A stretch of DNA of 64,000 nucleotides from assembly GCF_019297855.1 (NCBI RefSeq), contig NZ_CP079194.1, positions 3,211,501-3,275,500 on the forward strand. Reading direction: 5' to 3'. The stretch comes from Gymnodinialimonas ceratoperidinii. GTDB taxonomy: Bacteria; Pseudomonadota; Alphaproteobacteria; Rhodobacterales; Rhodobacteraceae. This document shows, piece after piece, positions 20,790 through 25,854 of this stretch. A program made the position numbers and the translations under genes. The notes below the pieces were generated by a model. That model was given only the letters and a program-made list of their open reading frames with translations, was not told the origin of the DNA and made no database searches. How positions within the stretch are numbered: the stretch's first letter is position 1; every line of letters begins with the position of its first letter.

Positions 20790-21101
20790 TACTGCTGCCT
20801 GCTCGTTTTTTCGTTCCGGCCATGATGCCGGTGATTTGTGGCCTTTTTAGCACCGATTGACGGCGAAGCGCGGGAAAAGCGCCCCGTGCAGACGAAAGGC
20901 CCCTGCCCTGCGGCAGCTTGGTGACACCCTCTGCACGCTCAATTTTTTTGCTTTCCAGAGCGCCAATTCCGCACGGATTGGCAGAAAGTTGCCTAAGCCT
21001 ATTGAAATGGGCGATAATAGCTACGAGCTACCCTTACCTCTGAACATTTAAAGGTGCTAGCTGATCACACCTTCGAGATGCGCAATACCCAAGTGGACGA
21101 A
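20790..21101. other. Intergenic region between the LpxR-like gene and the histidine kinase
   Basis: About 310 bases between divergent genes. It includes an AT-rich stretch (20940-21050) where the kinase promoter should lie and, on the other side, the leader of the LpxR-like gene. In-frame alternative starts of the kinase (GTG 21054, ATG 21078) lie in its right end. No RNA gene or strong hairpin recognised. Confidence 0.45.
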
Positions 21102-22976
21102 ATGGCAGATCTAACTGAACACGGCATTGGTGCACCCGCTTCGGGTGGTCGTACCATGGCCGAACGTGTTCAGAACAAGGACTGGACGATTACGACCCTT
21201 GGCCCGGCCGGTGCCTGGTCCCCTGCGCTGCACGCGGCGCGGGACGTCGTGCTCGGGACAGACCTCCCGATGGCACTGATCTGCGCGAAACACTGTGCGG
21301 TGGTTGCCTATAACGATGCCTATCTCGCCTGTCTCAACGGTCGCGCGCCCGAGCTTGGCTGCGACCTGTCCGAGATATTTCTCGACGTCGAGGACGTGGT
21401 CGCCGAAGCCGTCGCGCAGGCCTTCCGGGGCGAAGCGTCCTCGTTGAAGACGACAAAATTTGACCAGCATTTCAGCCCCGTGCGGGATGAAAACGGCGAT
21501 GTCGTCGGCGCGCTCATCCTGCCGGTCGCCCGGACCGATGGCGCGCGGGATATCGTGATTGACGATTTGGCGATCTCGCGCGCCTCGGTTGCAAAATACA
21601 ATTCGATATTCGAGGGGCTGGAAGAAGGGCTCTGCGTTGTCGAAGTGAACCTCGACAACGGCAATGGCCAGATCGATTACCGCGTCGTCGAAGCAAACTC
21701 CGCCTTTTACGACAATACCGGTTTTCCGCGCGAAATTCTGGGCGCCTGGTTGCGCAAGGCCGCCCCCGATCTGGAAGAACATTGGTACGAGATCTACGGC
21801 GATGTGGCGCGCAGTGGCGAGCCGAAGCGTTTCGAAGAGAACTCGGAGTTTCTCGGGCGATCCTTCGACGTCTTCGCGTTTCGGATTGATGAGGCCAAGG
21901 GTCTGGTCGCGATCCTGTTCAGGGACAATTCCGAGCACAAGAAGCACCAGAAACACAACGAACTGCTGCTGCGTGAGGTCAATCACCGCGCGAAGAACCT
22001 GCTGAGCCTCGTGCTGGCAATCGCGCGCCAGACCGAGCACACGGACGCGGAAGATTTCCTGCGTCGCTTCGGAAATCGCCTCAGGGGGTTGGCCGCCTCA
22101 CAGGATGTCCTGGTGAACCACACCTGGCGCGACGTGCCGCTGATCGAACTGGTCCATTCGCAGCTGGTTCATTTTGCGGGCCTCGTGGGCGATCGCATCC
22201 TGATCGAGGGCGGAGAAATCTCTCTCTCGCCGGATGCGGCGCAGACCGTCGGGATGGCGCTGCACGAGCTGGCCACGAATGCCTCGAAATACGGCGCGCT
22301 GTCCGATGATGACGGTGAAGTCACCATCACGTGGTCGATCGGAACCGAAGCCGATCCCAAGACCGGCTTCCAACTGACCTGGAAGGAAAGCGGCGGCCCG
22401 GCCGTATCGGAGCCTGAAAAGACGGGGTTCGGCTACACGGTCACGACCGACATGGTCGAGATGAACACCGGCGGAAAGGTCACGGCGCGCTACGAGCCCG
22501 AAGGGTTCGTCTGGCAGCTCGATTGCGAAAATTGCAACCTCTTGACCGGCAACTCGAAGCTGGATGCAACGGACAGCGCGACGGCACCGCCCGAGACCGC
22601 AACGGAGCGTCATCAACCGGTTGTGCTGATCGTGGAAGACGAGGCGCTGGTTGCCGCCGATATGGCCTTCCTGCTGAAAGACGAGGGCTACGGCGTCCTC
22701 GGCCCCGTGGGCAGCGTCAAAGGCGCGCTGGCGCTGCTTGACAAGAAAAGCTGTGACGGCGCCGTGCTGGATGTGAACCTTGGCCGCGAGACGTCCGAGC
22801 CGATTGCCGCGAGATTGACCGAGAACGGCACGCCGTTCATCGTGCTGTCAGGCTATTCGGCGCACCAACTGCCCGAAGGCTTCCGCGGCGCGCCGCTGGT
22901 CGACAAGCCCGTCCGTGCCGAGGAATTGACCCAGAAGCTCGAGACATTGCTTGCCGCCGAGGACGACGGTTCCTGA
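21102..22976 (+). CDS. HWE-family hybrid sensor histidine kinase with C-terminal receiver domain
   Basis: About 624 residues from the chosen ATG; GTG 21054 and ATG 21078 are in-frame alternatives and none has a strong ribosome site. Two PAS-like sensor segments (about residues 35-150 and 170-280) precede the kinase core. The phospho-acceptor His295 lies in LREVNHRAKNLLSLVLAIA, typical of HWE/HisKA_2 kinases. The ATP-binding part is MALHELATNASKYGALS with a C-terminal GFGYTVTTDM box. A receiver domain follows (VVLIVEDEALVAADMAFLL, phospho-acceptor Asp557 in VLDVNLG, later SGYSA and DKPV). It is soluble, with no membrane helices, so it senses a cytoplasmic cue. Kinases of this type often feed light- or stress-response pathways in alphaproteobacteria. 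No partner regulator gene is adjacent. Confidence 0.9.
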   Translation: MADLTEHGIGAPASGGRTMAERVQNKDWTITTLGPAGAWSPALHAARDVVLGTDLPMALICAKHCAVVAYNDAYLACLNGRAPELGCDLSEIFLDVEDVVAEAVAQAFRGEASSLKTTKFDQHFSPVRDENGDVVGALILPVARTDGARDIVIDDLAISRASVAKYNSIFEGLEEGLCVVEVNLDNGNGQIDYRVVEANSAFYDNTGFPREILGAWLRKAAPDLEEHWYEIYGDVARSGEPKRFEENSEFLGRSFDVFAFRIDEAKGLVAILFRDNSEHKKHQKHNELLLREVNHRAKNLLSLVLAIARQTEHTDAEDFLRRFGNRLRGLAASQDVLVNHTWRDVPLIELVHSQLVHFAGLVGDRILIEGGEISLSPDAAQTVGMALHELATNASKYGALSDDDGEVTITWSIGTEADPKTGFQLTWKESGGPAVSEPEKTGFGYTVTTDMVEMNTGGKVTARYEPEGFVWQLDCENCNLLTGNSKLDATDSATAPPETATERHQPVVLIVEDEALVAADMAFLLKDEGYGVLGPVGSVKGALALLDKKSCDGAVLDVNLGRETSEPIAARLTENGTPFIVLSGYSAHQLPEGFRGAPLVDKPVRAEELTQKLETLLAAEDDGS

Positions 22977-23018: not shown

Positions 23019-25613
23019 TCATCCGCATTTGGAATGTCCACAGGACCCGCAGGTCAGGCAGCCCTCCATCATCCGCAAGTCGTATTGACCGCAGGAGGGG
23101 CAGGCCGGACCGGGGCGATGGCCGATGTTCACCACTTCGGCCTGCGGGTCGGACTTGAGGCCCATCCCCTCGCCCGCCAGAAAGCCCGTCGCGATCATGT
23201 GTTTCTCGATCACGCCACCGATGGCCGCGAGGATCGAGGGCACGTATTTGCCCTGCATCCAAGCGCCGCCGCGCGGGTCGAAGACGGCCTTGAGTTCCTC
23301 GACCACGAAAGACACGTCACCGCCGCGCCGGAACACCGCCGAGATCATCCGGGTCAGCGCCACGGTCCAGGCGAAATGCTCCATGTTCTTGGAGTTGATG
23401 AAGACCTCGAAGGGGCGCCGGTGGCCGTTCAGCACGATGTCGTTGATCGTGATGTAGAGCGCATGTTCGCTGTCGGGCCATTTGACCTTGTAGGTATTGC
23501 CCTCCAACTCGCCGGGGCGCTGCAGCGGCTCGGACATGTAGACGACTTCACTGGAGCCGGAGGACATTTCCATCGGCGTCGCGGGGGAATCCTCGCTCTC
23601 GACAGAGGGCTGCGCCGGGCCGTCGGGGAGGTGCGAAGCGCCGCCCCGGGGGGGCGGAACGGCGCTGCCCGGCGTGCCGCCGGGCGTGTCCGCGTCTCCG
23701 AAGAGGAGCCAGCCGGGAGAGACATTGAAAATTGCAGCCAATGCTTCGGCGCCCTTCTTCGATAGCTCCTGCGCGCCATCCACCACCCAATGGGAATATG
23801 CGCTCCGCTTGACGCCGGCTGCGTCAGCAGCTTCCTGCTGCGTCTCGAAGCCCGCCGCTTTTTGCGCCCAGATCACGCGCTCTGCGGTTGTTTCCAACGA
23901 TGGAAGCACCGCGACCGGCGTCTCAGCCACACTCAACACGCTCCCCGTCACATCGTTCGGGCGATAGGTCGTGCAGCCCTTGCAGCCGGTGGCATAGGCC
24001 TCGGCATAGACGTCCTTGAAGGCCTCGAAGCTGATGTCGGCGGGCACGTTGATCGTCTTGGAAATGCTGCTGTCGATCCAAGGCTGCGCGGCGGCCTGCA
24101 TCCGCACGTGATCGAGCGGCGCCAGTGTCTGCGCGTTGACGAAGTAATCGGGCAGCGGCGCGTCGCCGTGCAACTCGCGCCACTTGGAGACCGCGAAATC
24201 GACGACCTCCTCCTCGGTCCGGGTGCCGTCCACCTGCAACACCTTGCGGGTGTAGGCATTGGCGAAGATCGGCTCGATCCCGGAAGAGACATTGCCCGCG
24301 AAGAGAGAGATCGTGCCCGTGGGCGCGATGGACGTGAGAAGCGCGTTGCGCAACCCATGCTTCGCGATCAGTTCCTGCACATCCGCATCGAGCCGCTGCA
24401 CCATCGGTGCGCGCGCGTATTCCGCCGCGTCGAAGAGCGGGAAGGCCCCCTTCTCGGCAGCCAGCTCGGCCGAGGCGCGGTAGGCGGCATTGGCGATCAG
24501 TGCCATCCACTCGCCGGTCTTCCGGGCGGCCTCTTCCGAGCCATAGCGCAGTCCGCACATGGCCAGCGCGTCAGCAAGGCCGGTCACACCCAGACCGATC
24601 CGACGCTTCGCCGCCGCCTCGGCGGCCTGCGCCTCCAGCGGGAAACGCGAGGCGTCGACCACGTTGTCCATCATCCGGATCGCCGTGGCCGTCAGATCAG
24701 CCAGCTTTTCCGCGTTCAGCGTGCCGCCCTCGAACGGCGTCTCCACCAGCTGCGCAAGGTTCACCGACCCGAGCAGGCACGCGCCATAGGGCGGCAGAGG
24801 CTGCTCGCCGCACGGATTGGTGGCGCAGATGGTCTCGGCATAGTTGAGGTTGTTCTCGGCGTTGATGCGGTCGATGAAGATGACGCCCGGCTCGGCGTAA
24901 TCATAGGTCGCGCGCATGATCTGGTTCCACAGATCGCGCGCCTGCACGGTGCGGTAGACGCGTCCGCCGAAGACGAGATCCCACGGGCCGTCGGCCTCGA
25001 CCGCCTCCATGAAGGGGTCGGTCGCCAGCACCGACATGTTGAACATCCGCAACCGCGCGGGGTCTTGCTTGGCGGCGATGAAGGCCTCGATATCGGGATG
25101 ATCGCAGCGCATCGTCGCCATCATCGCGCCGCGGCGCGAACCGGCCGACATGATCGTGCGGCACATGGCGTCCCAGACGTCCATGAAGCTCAGCGGGCCG
25201 GAGGCATCCGCCGCCACACCGCTGACCGCCGCACCCTTGGGCCGGATGGTGGAGAAATCGTAGCCGATGCCGCCGCCCTGCTGCATTGTCAGCGCGGCCT
25301 CTTTCAACATGTCGAAGATGCCGCCCATGCTGTCGGGCACGGTGCCCATGACGAAGCAGTTGAACAGCGTCACGGAGCGCCCGGTGCCCGCCCCGGCAAC
25401 GATGCGGCCGGCGGGCAGATATTTGAAATCCTCCAGCGCGCCGTAGAATTTTTCCTCCCACGTCTCCTTGTCGGTCTCGACCTCGGCCAGCGCGCGGGCG
25501 ATGCGGCGCCAGGTATCCTCGACACCGGCATCCACGGGCGTGCCGTCCGCCTCCTTGAGGCGATATTTCATGTCCCAGATTTGTTCAGCGATGGGGGCAG
25601 AGAAACGGCTCAC
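23019..25613 (-). CDS. nrdJ: Adenosylcobalamin-dependent (class II) ribonucleotide reductase with inserted XRE-type HTH domain
   Basis: 864 residues from a GTG start (MSRFSAPIAEQIWDMKYRLK), supported by AAGGAC eight bases upstream. The catalytic barrel shows the redox Cys in VTLFNCFVMG, the NPCGEQPLPPYGACLLGS active-site loop with catalytic Cys and Glu, and later SIAPTGTISLFAG. The C-terminal part has the segment EVVYMSEPL...KVKWPDSEHALYI and a Cys-rich tail (CPSCGQYDL, CLTCGSCGHSKC) that recharges the active site. Between them, residues about 573-640 form an XRE-like helix-turn-helix (QQEAADAAGVKRSAYSHW, ending NVSPGWLLFG), followed by a Pro/Gly-rich linker. This insertion is not a normal part of the family. 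The enzyme makes dNTP precursors independent of oxygen and needs B12. Confidence 0.95.
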   Translation of the reverse strand: MSRFSAPIAEQIWDMKYRLKEADGTPVDAGVEDTWRRIARALAEVETDKETWEEKFYGALEDFKYLPAGRIVAGAGTGRSVTLFNCFVMGTVPDSMGGIFDMLKEAALTMQQGGGIGYDFSTIRPKGAAVSGVAADASGPLSFMDVWDAMCRTIMSAGSRRGAMMATMRCDHPDIEAFIAAKQDPARLRMFNMSVLATDPFMEAVEADGPWDLVFGGRVYRTVQARDLWNQIMRATYDYAEPGVIFIDRINAENNLNYAETICATNPCGEQPLPPYGACLLGSVNLAQLVETPFEGGTLNAEKLADLTATAIRMMDNVVDASRFPLEAQAAEAAAKRRIGLGVTGLADALAMCGLRYGSEEAARKTGEWMALIANAAYRASAELAAEKGAFPLFDAAEYARAPMVQRLDADVQELIAKHGLRNALLTSIAPTGTISLFAGNVSSGIEPIFANAYTRKVLQVDGTRTEEEVVDFAVSKWRELHGDAPLPDYFVNAQTLAPLDHVRMQAAAQPWIDSSISKTINVPADISFEAFKDVYAEAYATGCKGCTTYRPNDVTGSVLSVAETPVAVLPSLETTAERVIWAQKAAGFETQQEAADAAGVKRSAYSHWVVDGAQELSKKGAEALAAIFNVSPGWLLFGDADTPGGTPGSAVPPPRGGASHLPDGPAQPSVESEDSPATPMEMSSGSSEVVYMSEPLQRPGELEGNTYKVKWPDSEHALYITINDIVLNGHRRPFEVFINSKNMEHFAWTVALTRMISAVFRRGGDVSFVVEELKAVFDPRGGAWMQGKYVPSILAAIGGVIEKHMIATGFLAGEGMGLKSDPQAEVVNIGHRPGPACPSCGQYDLRMMEGCLTCGSCGHSKCG

Positions 25614-25854
25614 GGCAGAGAGTCCTTGATCGATGAGAGTGCGGAGACCCAAGATAGCCTCTTTTCCGCCGAAGCGCCACGCAAACCGGACGCCATTTCT
25701 GCGCCTTGCCTCACCGTCAGCGAGAGAGGCTTCACCGCCGTTTCATCGGCGCTTTCACGCAGGGTTGTCGCGTGAGGTCTTGTTACCCACCCCGCGCATG
25801 TTAACTTTAAGGCTACATCATCTTGGGGAATGCCTGTTGCCTGCTACCACACAC

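Follow-up and report, generated by a model that had tools for sequence, protein, structure and literature searches.

Why should an enzyme that makes DNA precursors carry a predicted DNA-binding domain resembling those of phage repressors? The question is raised by nrdJ, a class II ribonucleotide reductase (RNR) gene of Gymnodinialimonas ceratoperidinii (Rhodobacteraceae), located on the minus strand at 23019..25613 of a 64,000-nucleotide (nt) stretch of contig NZ_CP079194.1 (positions 3,211,501 to 3,275,500). This whole stretch is termed the window and its genome the window genome (G000). Between the catalytic barrel of NrdJ (residues 98-563, 23964..25361, PF02867 with E=2e-127) and its TSCPD and Cys-rich C-terminus, in one frame that is open on both sides, an XRE-type helix-turn-helix (HTH) domain is inserted at residues 586-653 (23694..23897; ERVIWAQ ... 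GWLLFG at 591-652). As judged by protein alignment, this HTH is exchangeable, with different types or none found at one fixed site of near-identical enzymes. Residue numbers follow the 877-amino-acid (aa) open frame, while GTG-based numbering is 13 lower (586-653 becomes 573-640). All NrdJ features described here lie on the minus strand.

The domain is recognized by profile search. On the whole NrdJ protein, the Pfam model HTH_3 (PF01381) matches residues 604-649 with 25.7 bits (E=1.2e-5, curated cut-off 23), and the excised segment alone reaches 29.7 bits (E=6.5e-7). The NCBIfam DicA model aligns to residues 588-657 with 28.4 bits (E=1.2e-6), far below its family cut-off of 101. These matches bear out the original prediction, which had placed an XRE domain at residues 573-640 in GTG numbering (23694-23897), within an intact frame and in the linker before the C-terminal Cys-rich domain; barrel, TSCPD domain, and tail indeed share one frame. 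To compare carriers, we sorted their HTHs into eight types under labels of our own. These labels come from Louvain clustering of blastp scores, supplemented by a motif that defines type C, and L257 was judged by eye to form a separate type. The window HTH belongs to type A, and types B, C, D, and F likewise score above the PF01381 cut-off. Across 36 distinct type A domains, R592, W595, G601, W622, A635, W648, L650, and G652 are invariant, a pattern that appears compatible with an XRE fold. The predicted recognition helix, VKRSAYSHW (residues 614-622, 23787..23813), is assigned by its position in HTH_3, as a helix by analogy. By per-site entropy in the same 36 sequences, its positions 615, 616, 620, and 621 are variable around the invariant W622, at a level that does not exceed the variability at other exposed positions. 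Because these recognition-helix positions vary, the target of the HTH does not look conserved. The segment 23694-23897 is an XRE-type domain for which DNA binding is predicted and plausible.

The exchange becomes apparent when NrdJ cores are compared with the HTHs that they bear. HTH identities were calculated with end gaps penalized and at least 45 aligned residues, by which two pairs were dropped; the protein set is enriched for HTH carriers, being drawn from a search with the insert region. Cores of up to 99.6% identity bear HTHs that are just 26-44% identical at one site. Thus, P0003 and P0004 differ in 3 of 720 core residues (99.6% identity) and share 40% of their HTH, P0008 and L055 differ in 4 of 721 (99.4%) and share 26%, and P0026 and P0106 differ in 5 of 721 and share 43%. 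The set of P0026, P0106, and P0033 combines cores of 98.6-99.3% with HTHs of 40-44% identity, and P0014 and L288 combine a 97.4% core with a 32% HTH. The exchanged segment has conserved edges. NDVTGSVL at its upstream edge (residues 566-573, 23934..23957) is kept in carriers and non-carriers, and swapped pairs lose identity just after it; identity is regained at or before EVVYMSEPL (residues 702-710, 23523..23549), the first residues of the conserved C-terminal part, which follows a Pro/Gly-rich linker (residues 653-701, 23550..23696). In the alignment of P0008 with L055, identity ends past TGSVLSVAEEKPK and returns in TPGAAGQAPTAP directly beyond the HTH. Presence of the domain varies in the same way: in P0090 and L033, with cores of 98.6% identity, the HTH is present in one and absent from the other before the same tail LPLVSNIPGEAPKAAGAEPPARWAGDSD. 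Since both flanks remain identical, the exchange probably occurs through homologous recombination across the conserved nrdJ flanks.

The same pattern holds within the genus. HTHs of three types are found in the window genome (A), G006 (C), and G004 (B), with mutual identities of 34%, 21%, and 14% on cores of 91-95%. The window NrdJ shares 94.9% of its core and 34% of its HTH with that of G006 (P0007), and 92.2% and 21% with that of G004 (L004). Moreover, G006 and G002 (L003), which has no HTH, differ by presence of the domain on cores of 98.1% identity. Across the carriers (107 of 144, a near-clonal set of 37 being omitted), 15 pairs have cores of at least 97% identity; 8 of these, from 4 independent groups, differ in HTH type and 7 have the same type. 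Core and HTH identity are uncorrelated (Spearman 0.02; 5,354 pairs of 104 de-duplicated carriers), whereas the N-terminal and C-terminal core parts, taken as control, correlate (Spearman 0.38). On a FastTree core tree with 210 tips, including the 104 carriers, the eight types need at minimum 7 changes. We count 54, compared to a mean of 61.4 (SD 2.4, lowest 55) in 200 label shuffles; with types A and A2 merged, the count is 45 versus 48.8 (SD 1.8). Presence of the HTH changes 44 times, versus a shuffled mean of 70.8. A small part of the HTH type thus appears to be inherited along with the core, and most of it does not.

How far does the domain reach? In an evenly drawn family sample of 139 genomes, of which 118 have a NrdJ core, the HTH occurs in 20 of the 118 nrdJ genes (about one in six), 19 of them intact. 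Linkers were read in 63 of these genes; the other 55 were scored as HTH-less since their open frames fall below 800 aa, whereas intact carriers of the sample have frames of 841 aa or more; broken carriers may thus go uncounted. In the remaining carrier, L036 (G021), the nrdJ frame is broken in a repeat-like linker after the HTH, possibly by a sequencing error or as a broken gene. All 13 linkers of the genus were read; 3 NrdJ proteins (window genome, G006, G004) carry the domain and the other 10 are without it. Outside the family, 95 genomes matched the NrdJ core, and no HTH is seen by eye in the 38 linkers read there (26, together with 12 of 14 further long frames, 2 being unparsed); in the 55 genomes whose linkers went unread, frames do not exceed about 808 aa. 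The statement of the original prediction that class II RNRs normally lack such a module agrees with these counts, as most family NrdJ sampled and all those read outside the family are without these residues. In the proteins compared, the HTH found by the profile hidden Markov model is no standard part of NrdJ. Some proteins hold more than one: P0009, P0029, and L300 (G146) carry tandem HTHs of different types. Two different HTHs in tandem are also seen in P0030 and P0034.

The domain could also be a tolerated passenger, with a flexible linker taking nearly any folded insert and recombination at nrdJ moving common XRE domains around without function. Most relatives manage without the HTH, in-frame repeat elements also occupy the linker, and inserts judged by eye not to be HTHs (viral L132 and L158) as well as the peptide repeats of L197 are found in the same linker. 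Because viral and other NrdJ proteins hold different insertions there, the linker site seems to tolerate inserts in general. However, every long insert read in the linker of bacterial NrdJ from the family looks HTH-like by eye, tandem HTHs exist, and the type A domains keep their invariant fold positions. Further, the ratio of nonsynonymous to synonymous substitution rates (dN/dS) is low in types B, D, and E: within these types it amounts to 0.11-0.32 for the HTH in 16 of the 25 closest pairs, with core values of 0.11-0.22; the other 9 pairs are saturated at synonymous sites, and type A pairs are not among the 25. One pair, P0042 and P0082, has changed solely in the linker and HTH, with 0 of 721 core versus 7 of 108 linker/HTH differences (Fisher 5e-7), and two of these changes fall within the recognition helix; another two pairs in this set show 1 and 3 core versus 6 and 5 linker/HTH differences. 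A purely neutral insertion, one of the options raised in the original prediction, is weakened by the dN/dS values of types B, D, and E and by the conserved type A fold positions, and we consider a passenger role somewhat doubtful.

XRE domains are usually regulators, which favors a role of the HTH in controlling the transcription of nrdJ or of further nucleotide genes of the host, by which the enzyme would report its own level or the nucleotide state at host promoters. In line with this, the assemblies of one class II RNR respond to deoxynucleoside triphosphates (dNTPs; PMC5704485), and the upstream region of nrdJ in the window genome differs from those of its relatives, with 58-59% identity to G006 and G002. 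On the other hand, a fixed host target is at odds with a recognition helix that varies and with specificities that are exchanged. In G006, with its type C HTH, and G002, with none, the upstream region of nrdJ is 90% identical over 330 nt, and no type-specific site is seen by eye upstream of nrdJ in the alignment of the 13 genus members, about 8 of which seem to have another upstream neighbor. Autoregulation through an HTH-specific nrdJ operator, which the original prediction had suggested, was rejected as the favorite on these two grounds; it has gained no positive support, given the varying helix and the exchanged types, but the low identity of the window genome's own upstream region leaves room for a site particular to it. 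In addition, the window genome encodes its own separate NrdR elsewhere, and no NrdR model is among the Pfam and NCBIfam matches of NrdJ. A host regulator is unlikely.

If not a host promoter, what might the domain recognize? Most HTH types resemble the N-terminal domains of phage repressors. The window HTH (type A) matches Rhizobium phage S24 repressors (E=4e-6) and the repressor of Ruegeria phage 45A6 (43.5% identity, E=6e-4), which is of S24 type by sequence; its listed phage matches are at most 43.5% identical. Type C matches Agrobacterium phage Atu_ph08 (50%, E=2e-11), types A2 and F match phage repressors or regulators (best E 1e-4 and 1e-6), and type B matches the XRE regulator SUFP_050 of Sulfitobacter phage NYA-2014a (E=2e-4), described in PMC7305329 as one of two XRE open reading frames (ORFs) of a roseobacter phage. 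Within family genomes, the window HTH is most similar to the HTHs of other NrdJ proteins (61, 53, 47, 44, and 41%). Stand-alone relatives of types B and D reach 46% there, and a homologue search among proteins of about 119-378 aa returned three proteins with type D as query and was empty with type A. A direct prophage donor was rejected as candidate, since the stand-alone relatives that types A, B, C, and D retrieved from family genomes did not exceed 46% identity. A viral source for the entire insert was likewise rejected, as the 48 parsed of 59 viral NrdJ loci show no HTH by eye, 11 being unparsed.

A conserved host target is hard to reconcile with near-identical enzymes that bear very different HTHs, and a quickly changing one, such as the operators of temperate phages, would suit the exchange pattern best. 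We therefore put forward, tentatively, that the swappable XRE-type HTH in the NrdJ linker binds strain-specific DNA, most likely a temperate phage operator; this is possible, at somewhat less than an even chance. Paired HTHs on NrdJ dimers or larger assemblies would hold an inverted repeat in the manner of CI/C2-type repressors, and the enzyme would occupy and silence the operator. HTH specificity would be under diversifying or frequency-dependent selection, comparable to phage immunity types or the target-recognition domains of HsdS; with such selection, the target would belong to a fast-changing element. DNA binding might, speculatively, also respond to the dNTP level. This step is proposed because another class II NrdJ forms tetramers induced by deoxyadenosine triphosphate (dATP) only with its C-terminal Cys-rich domain, which is also required for turnover with one reductant, as reported in PMC5704485. 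The HTH precedes the corresponding part of the present NrdJ, which may be of another subclass.

Two other roles could be conceived for a mobile domain of this kind. As a protein-interaction bait, it would bind phage antirepressors or other phage proteins, and its variation would reflect an arms race over protein contacts. Its likeness to phage repressor domains and its exchange between strains agree with such a role. Nothing specific speaks against it, but the varying recognition-helix positions suit DNA contacts at least equally. A bait is quite improbable. As a positioning module, the HTH would anchor dNTP production at chromosome, plasmid, or replication sites, a natural thought for a DNA-precursor enzyme with a predicted DNA-binding domain. 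Anchor sites are expected to be conserved, yet the HTHs of close relatives differ strongly, and the domain is absent from most sampled relatives. Positioning is very improbable.

Several observations weigh against operator binding by a swappable HTH. With regard to its premises, the domain is lacking in 98 of the 118 family members sampled, and the tested type E domain (L064) stays below every Pfam HTH cut-off, with 17.2 bits for PF01381. The 54 type changes on the core tree are fewer than in any of the 200 shuffles, so that type is not fully random; types A and E form clusters there. Metagenomic proteins figure in several of the swapped pairs; G000, G002, G004, and G006 are one- or two-contig genomes. 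The low dN/dS of the HTH may partly reflect its past in donor proteins. With regard to phages, types D and E have no phage match at thresholds of 1e-5 and 0.01, no stand-alone relative in 198 family genomes shares more than 42% identity with the window HTH, and the type C query gave a single one (37%) in 100 genomes, so that neither a direct prophage donor nor a matching phage operator emerged. Finally, no gene near nrdJ distinguishes carriers in a comparison of 12 carriers with 55 non-carriers (80 named loci, 13 unparsed).

Comparison with known systems places the proposed operator-binding NrdJ between an enzyme family and two groups of DNA-recognizing proteins. Class II NrdJ enzymes with Cys-rich C-terminus (TIGR02504; compare the NrdJd of PMC5704485) have barrel, TSCPD domain, and Cys-rich tail in common with the present protein, which differs from them in that an XRE HTH separates its barrel from the C-terminal part; the main text of PMC5704485 is without the words helix-turn-helix, DNA-binding, and linker. 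The NrdJ HTH resembles the N-terminal domain of S24/CI/C2-type repressors (Ruegeria phage 45A6, DicA) up to its VSPxWLLFG end, and its exchange of specificity resembles phage immunity types. Unlike S24 and CI repressors, it comes without S24 peptidase or CI dimerization domain, its partner being the enzyme; no S24 peptidase or CI oligomerization domain is among the Pfam matches listed for NrdJ up to E=10. In HsdS of type I restriction systems, a DNA-specificity domain is swapped within a conserved scaffold. This likeness concerns the way of working only, with no homology claimed, and NrdJ has neither methylase nor nuclease. NrdR likewise joins RNR and DNA binding, but does so as a separate protein.

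In its strongest form, the operator-binding proposal would make the NrdJ of this family a polymorphic chromosomal determinant of phage immunity, an enzyme that makes dNTPs, responds to them, and represses temperate phages with an operator specificity that strains swap in the way of immunity or HsdS types; we regard this form as rather doubtful. A fast-moving predicted DNA-recognition domain, exchanged as a whole on a 97-99.6% constant enzyme, bears the signature of selection for specificity that phage repressors and restriction enzymes show elsewhere. Should the domain bind DNA, it would couple dNTP synthesis straight to the control of genes or phages and offer a polymorphic locus of a new kind for tests against the phages of the family. 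If it does not, NrdJ would be a striking case of a mobile domain that a DNA-synthesis enzyme tolerates. Databases already hold Pfam annotations of NrdJ proteins with an HTH; we found no paper on an HTH in NrdJ, which is weak evidence of novelty, since most subscription journals and preprints lie outside our literature search.

The enzyme around the insert is complete. The open frame of nrdJ extends over 23019-25652 (877 codons), and comparison with homologues beginning M[ST]RF makes the GTG at 25613 the likely start, giving 864 aa for 23019..25613 with the stop codon included. By its sequence, the product is a class II RNR, predicted to depend on adenosylcobalamin (vitamin B12): the NrdJ_Z model TIGR02504 (NCBIfam) matches with 587.6 bits (cut-off 399.95), and Pfam PF02867, PF00317, and PF12637 all match above cut-off. 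N279, P280, C281, G282, and E283 are invariant in 67 of 67 aligned proteins and form the NPCGE stretch, which we take to be the active-site motif. Following the TSCPD domain (residues 721-819, 23196..23492, PF12637 with E=1.2e-10), the C-terminal Cys-rich tail, CPSCG ... CGSCGHSKCG (residues 848-877, 23022..23111, from sequence), contains C851, C854, C865, C868, C871, and C876, which are invariant in the same 67 proteins; a role in turnover is reported for such a tail (PMC5704485).

The Pro/Gly-rich linker noted in the original prediction is real and partly an in-frame copy of a genomic repeat. Its segment 23606-23671 is a GC-rich, palindromic-looking element whose other copy (66 nt, 80% identity, E=1e-10) sits in an apparently intergenic stretch at G000:C1:3456032-3456097 (L043 about 1501-1566). 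By a simple pattern, similar linker peptides follow different HTHs in 18 of 144 carriers. Other, by eye non-HTH inserts or peptide repeats occupy the same linker in the viral-contig proteins L132, L158, L187, and L188, and peptide repeats are seen in L197 (G678). Elsewhere in the protein, P0015 shows a LAGLIDADG intein-like insert at NPC/GEQPL of a same-family NrdJ, and frames of 1163-1179 aa in G020:C2 and G040:C101 show a match gap near that position. Short NrdJ-like frames (G010:C2:543929-545635, G011:C2:499914-501617, G322:C17:3307-5010) are about 56% identical and about 577 aa long, with no room for the C-terminal Cys-rich part.

Beyond nrdJ, the window genome holds another RNR-like frame, which is longer (1229 aa), and gave no match for a class I RNR small subunit, one of which was found in 7 of 14 genomes by a control search. 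The window has no Rfam match at gathering thresholds that would indicate a riboswitch or other RNA. A linked partner gene was rejected as candidate, as carriers and non-carriers have frequent neighbors in common, including histidine biosynthesis genes (by sequence reading). Beside nrdJ and convergent with it, the ORF at 21054-22976 on the plus strand looks by eye like a histidine kinase of the PAS/HWE type that carries a receiver domain in its C-terminal part.

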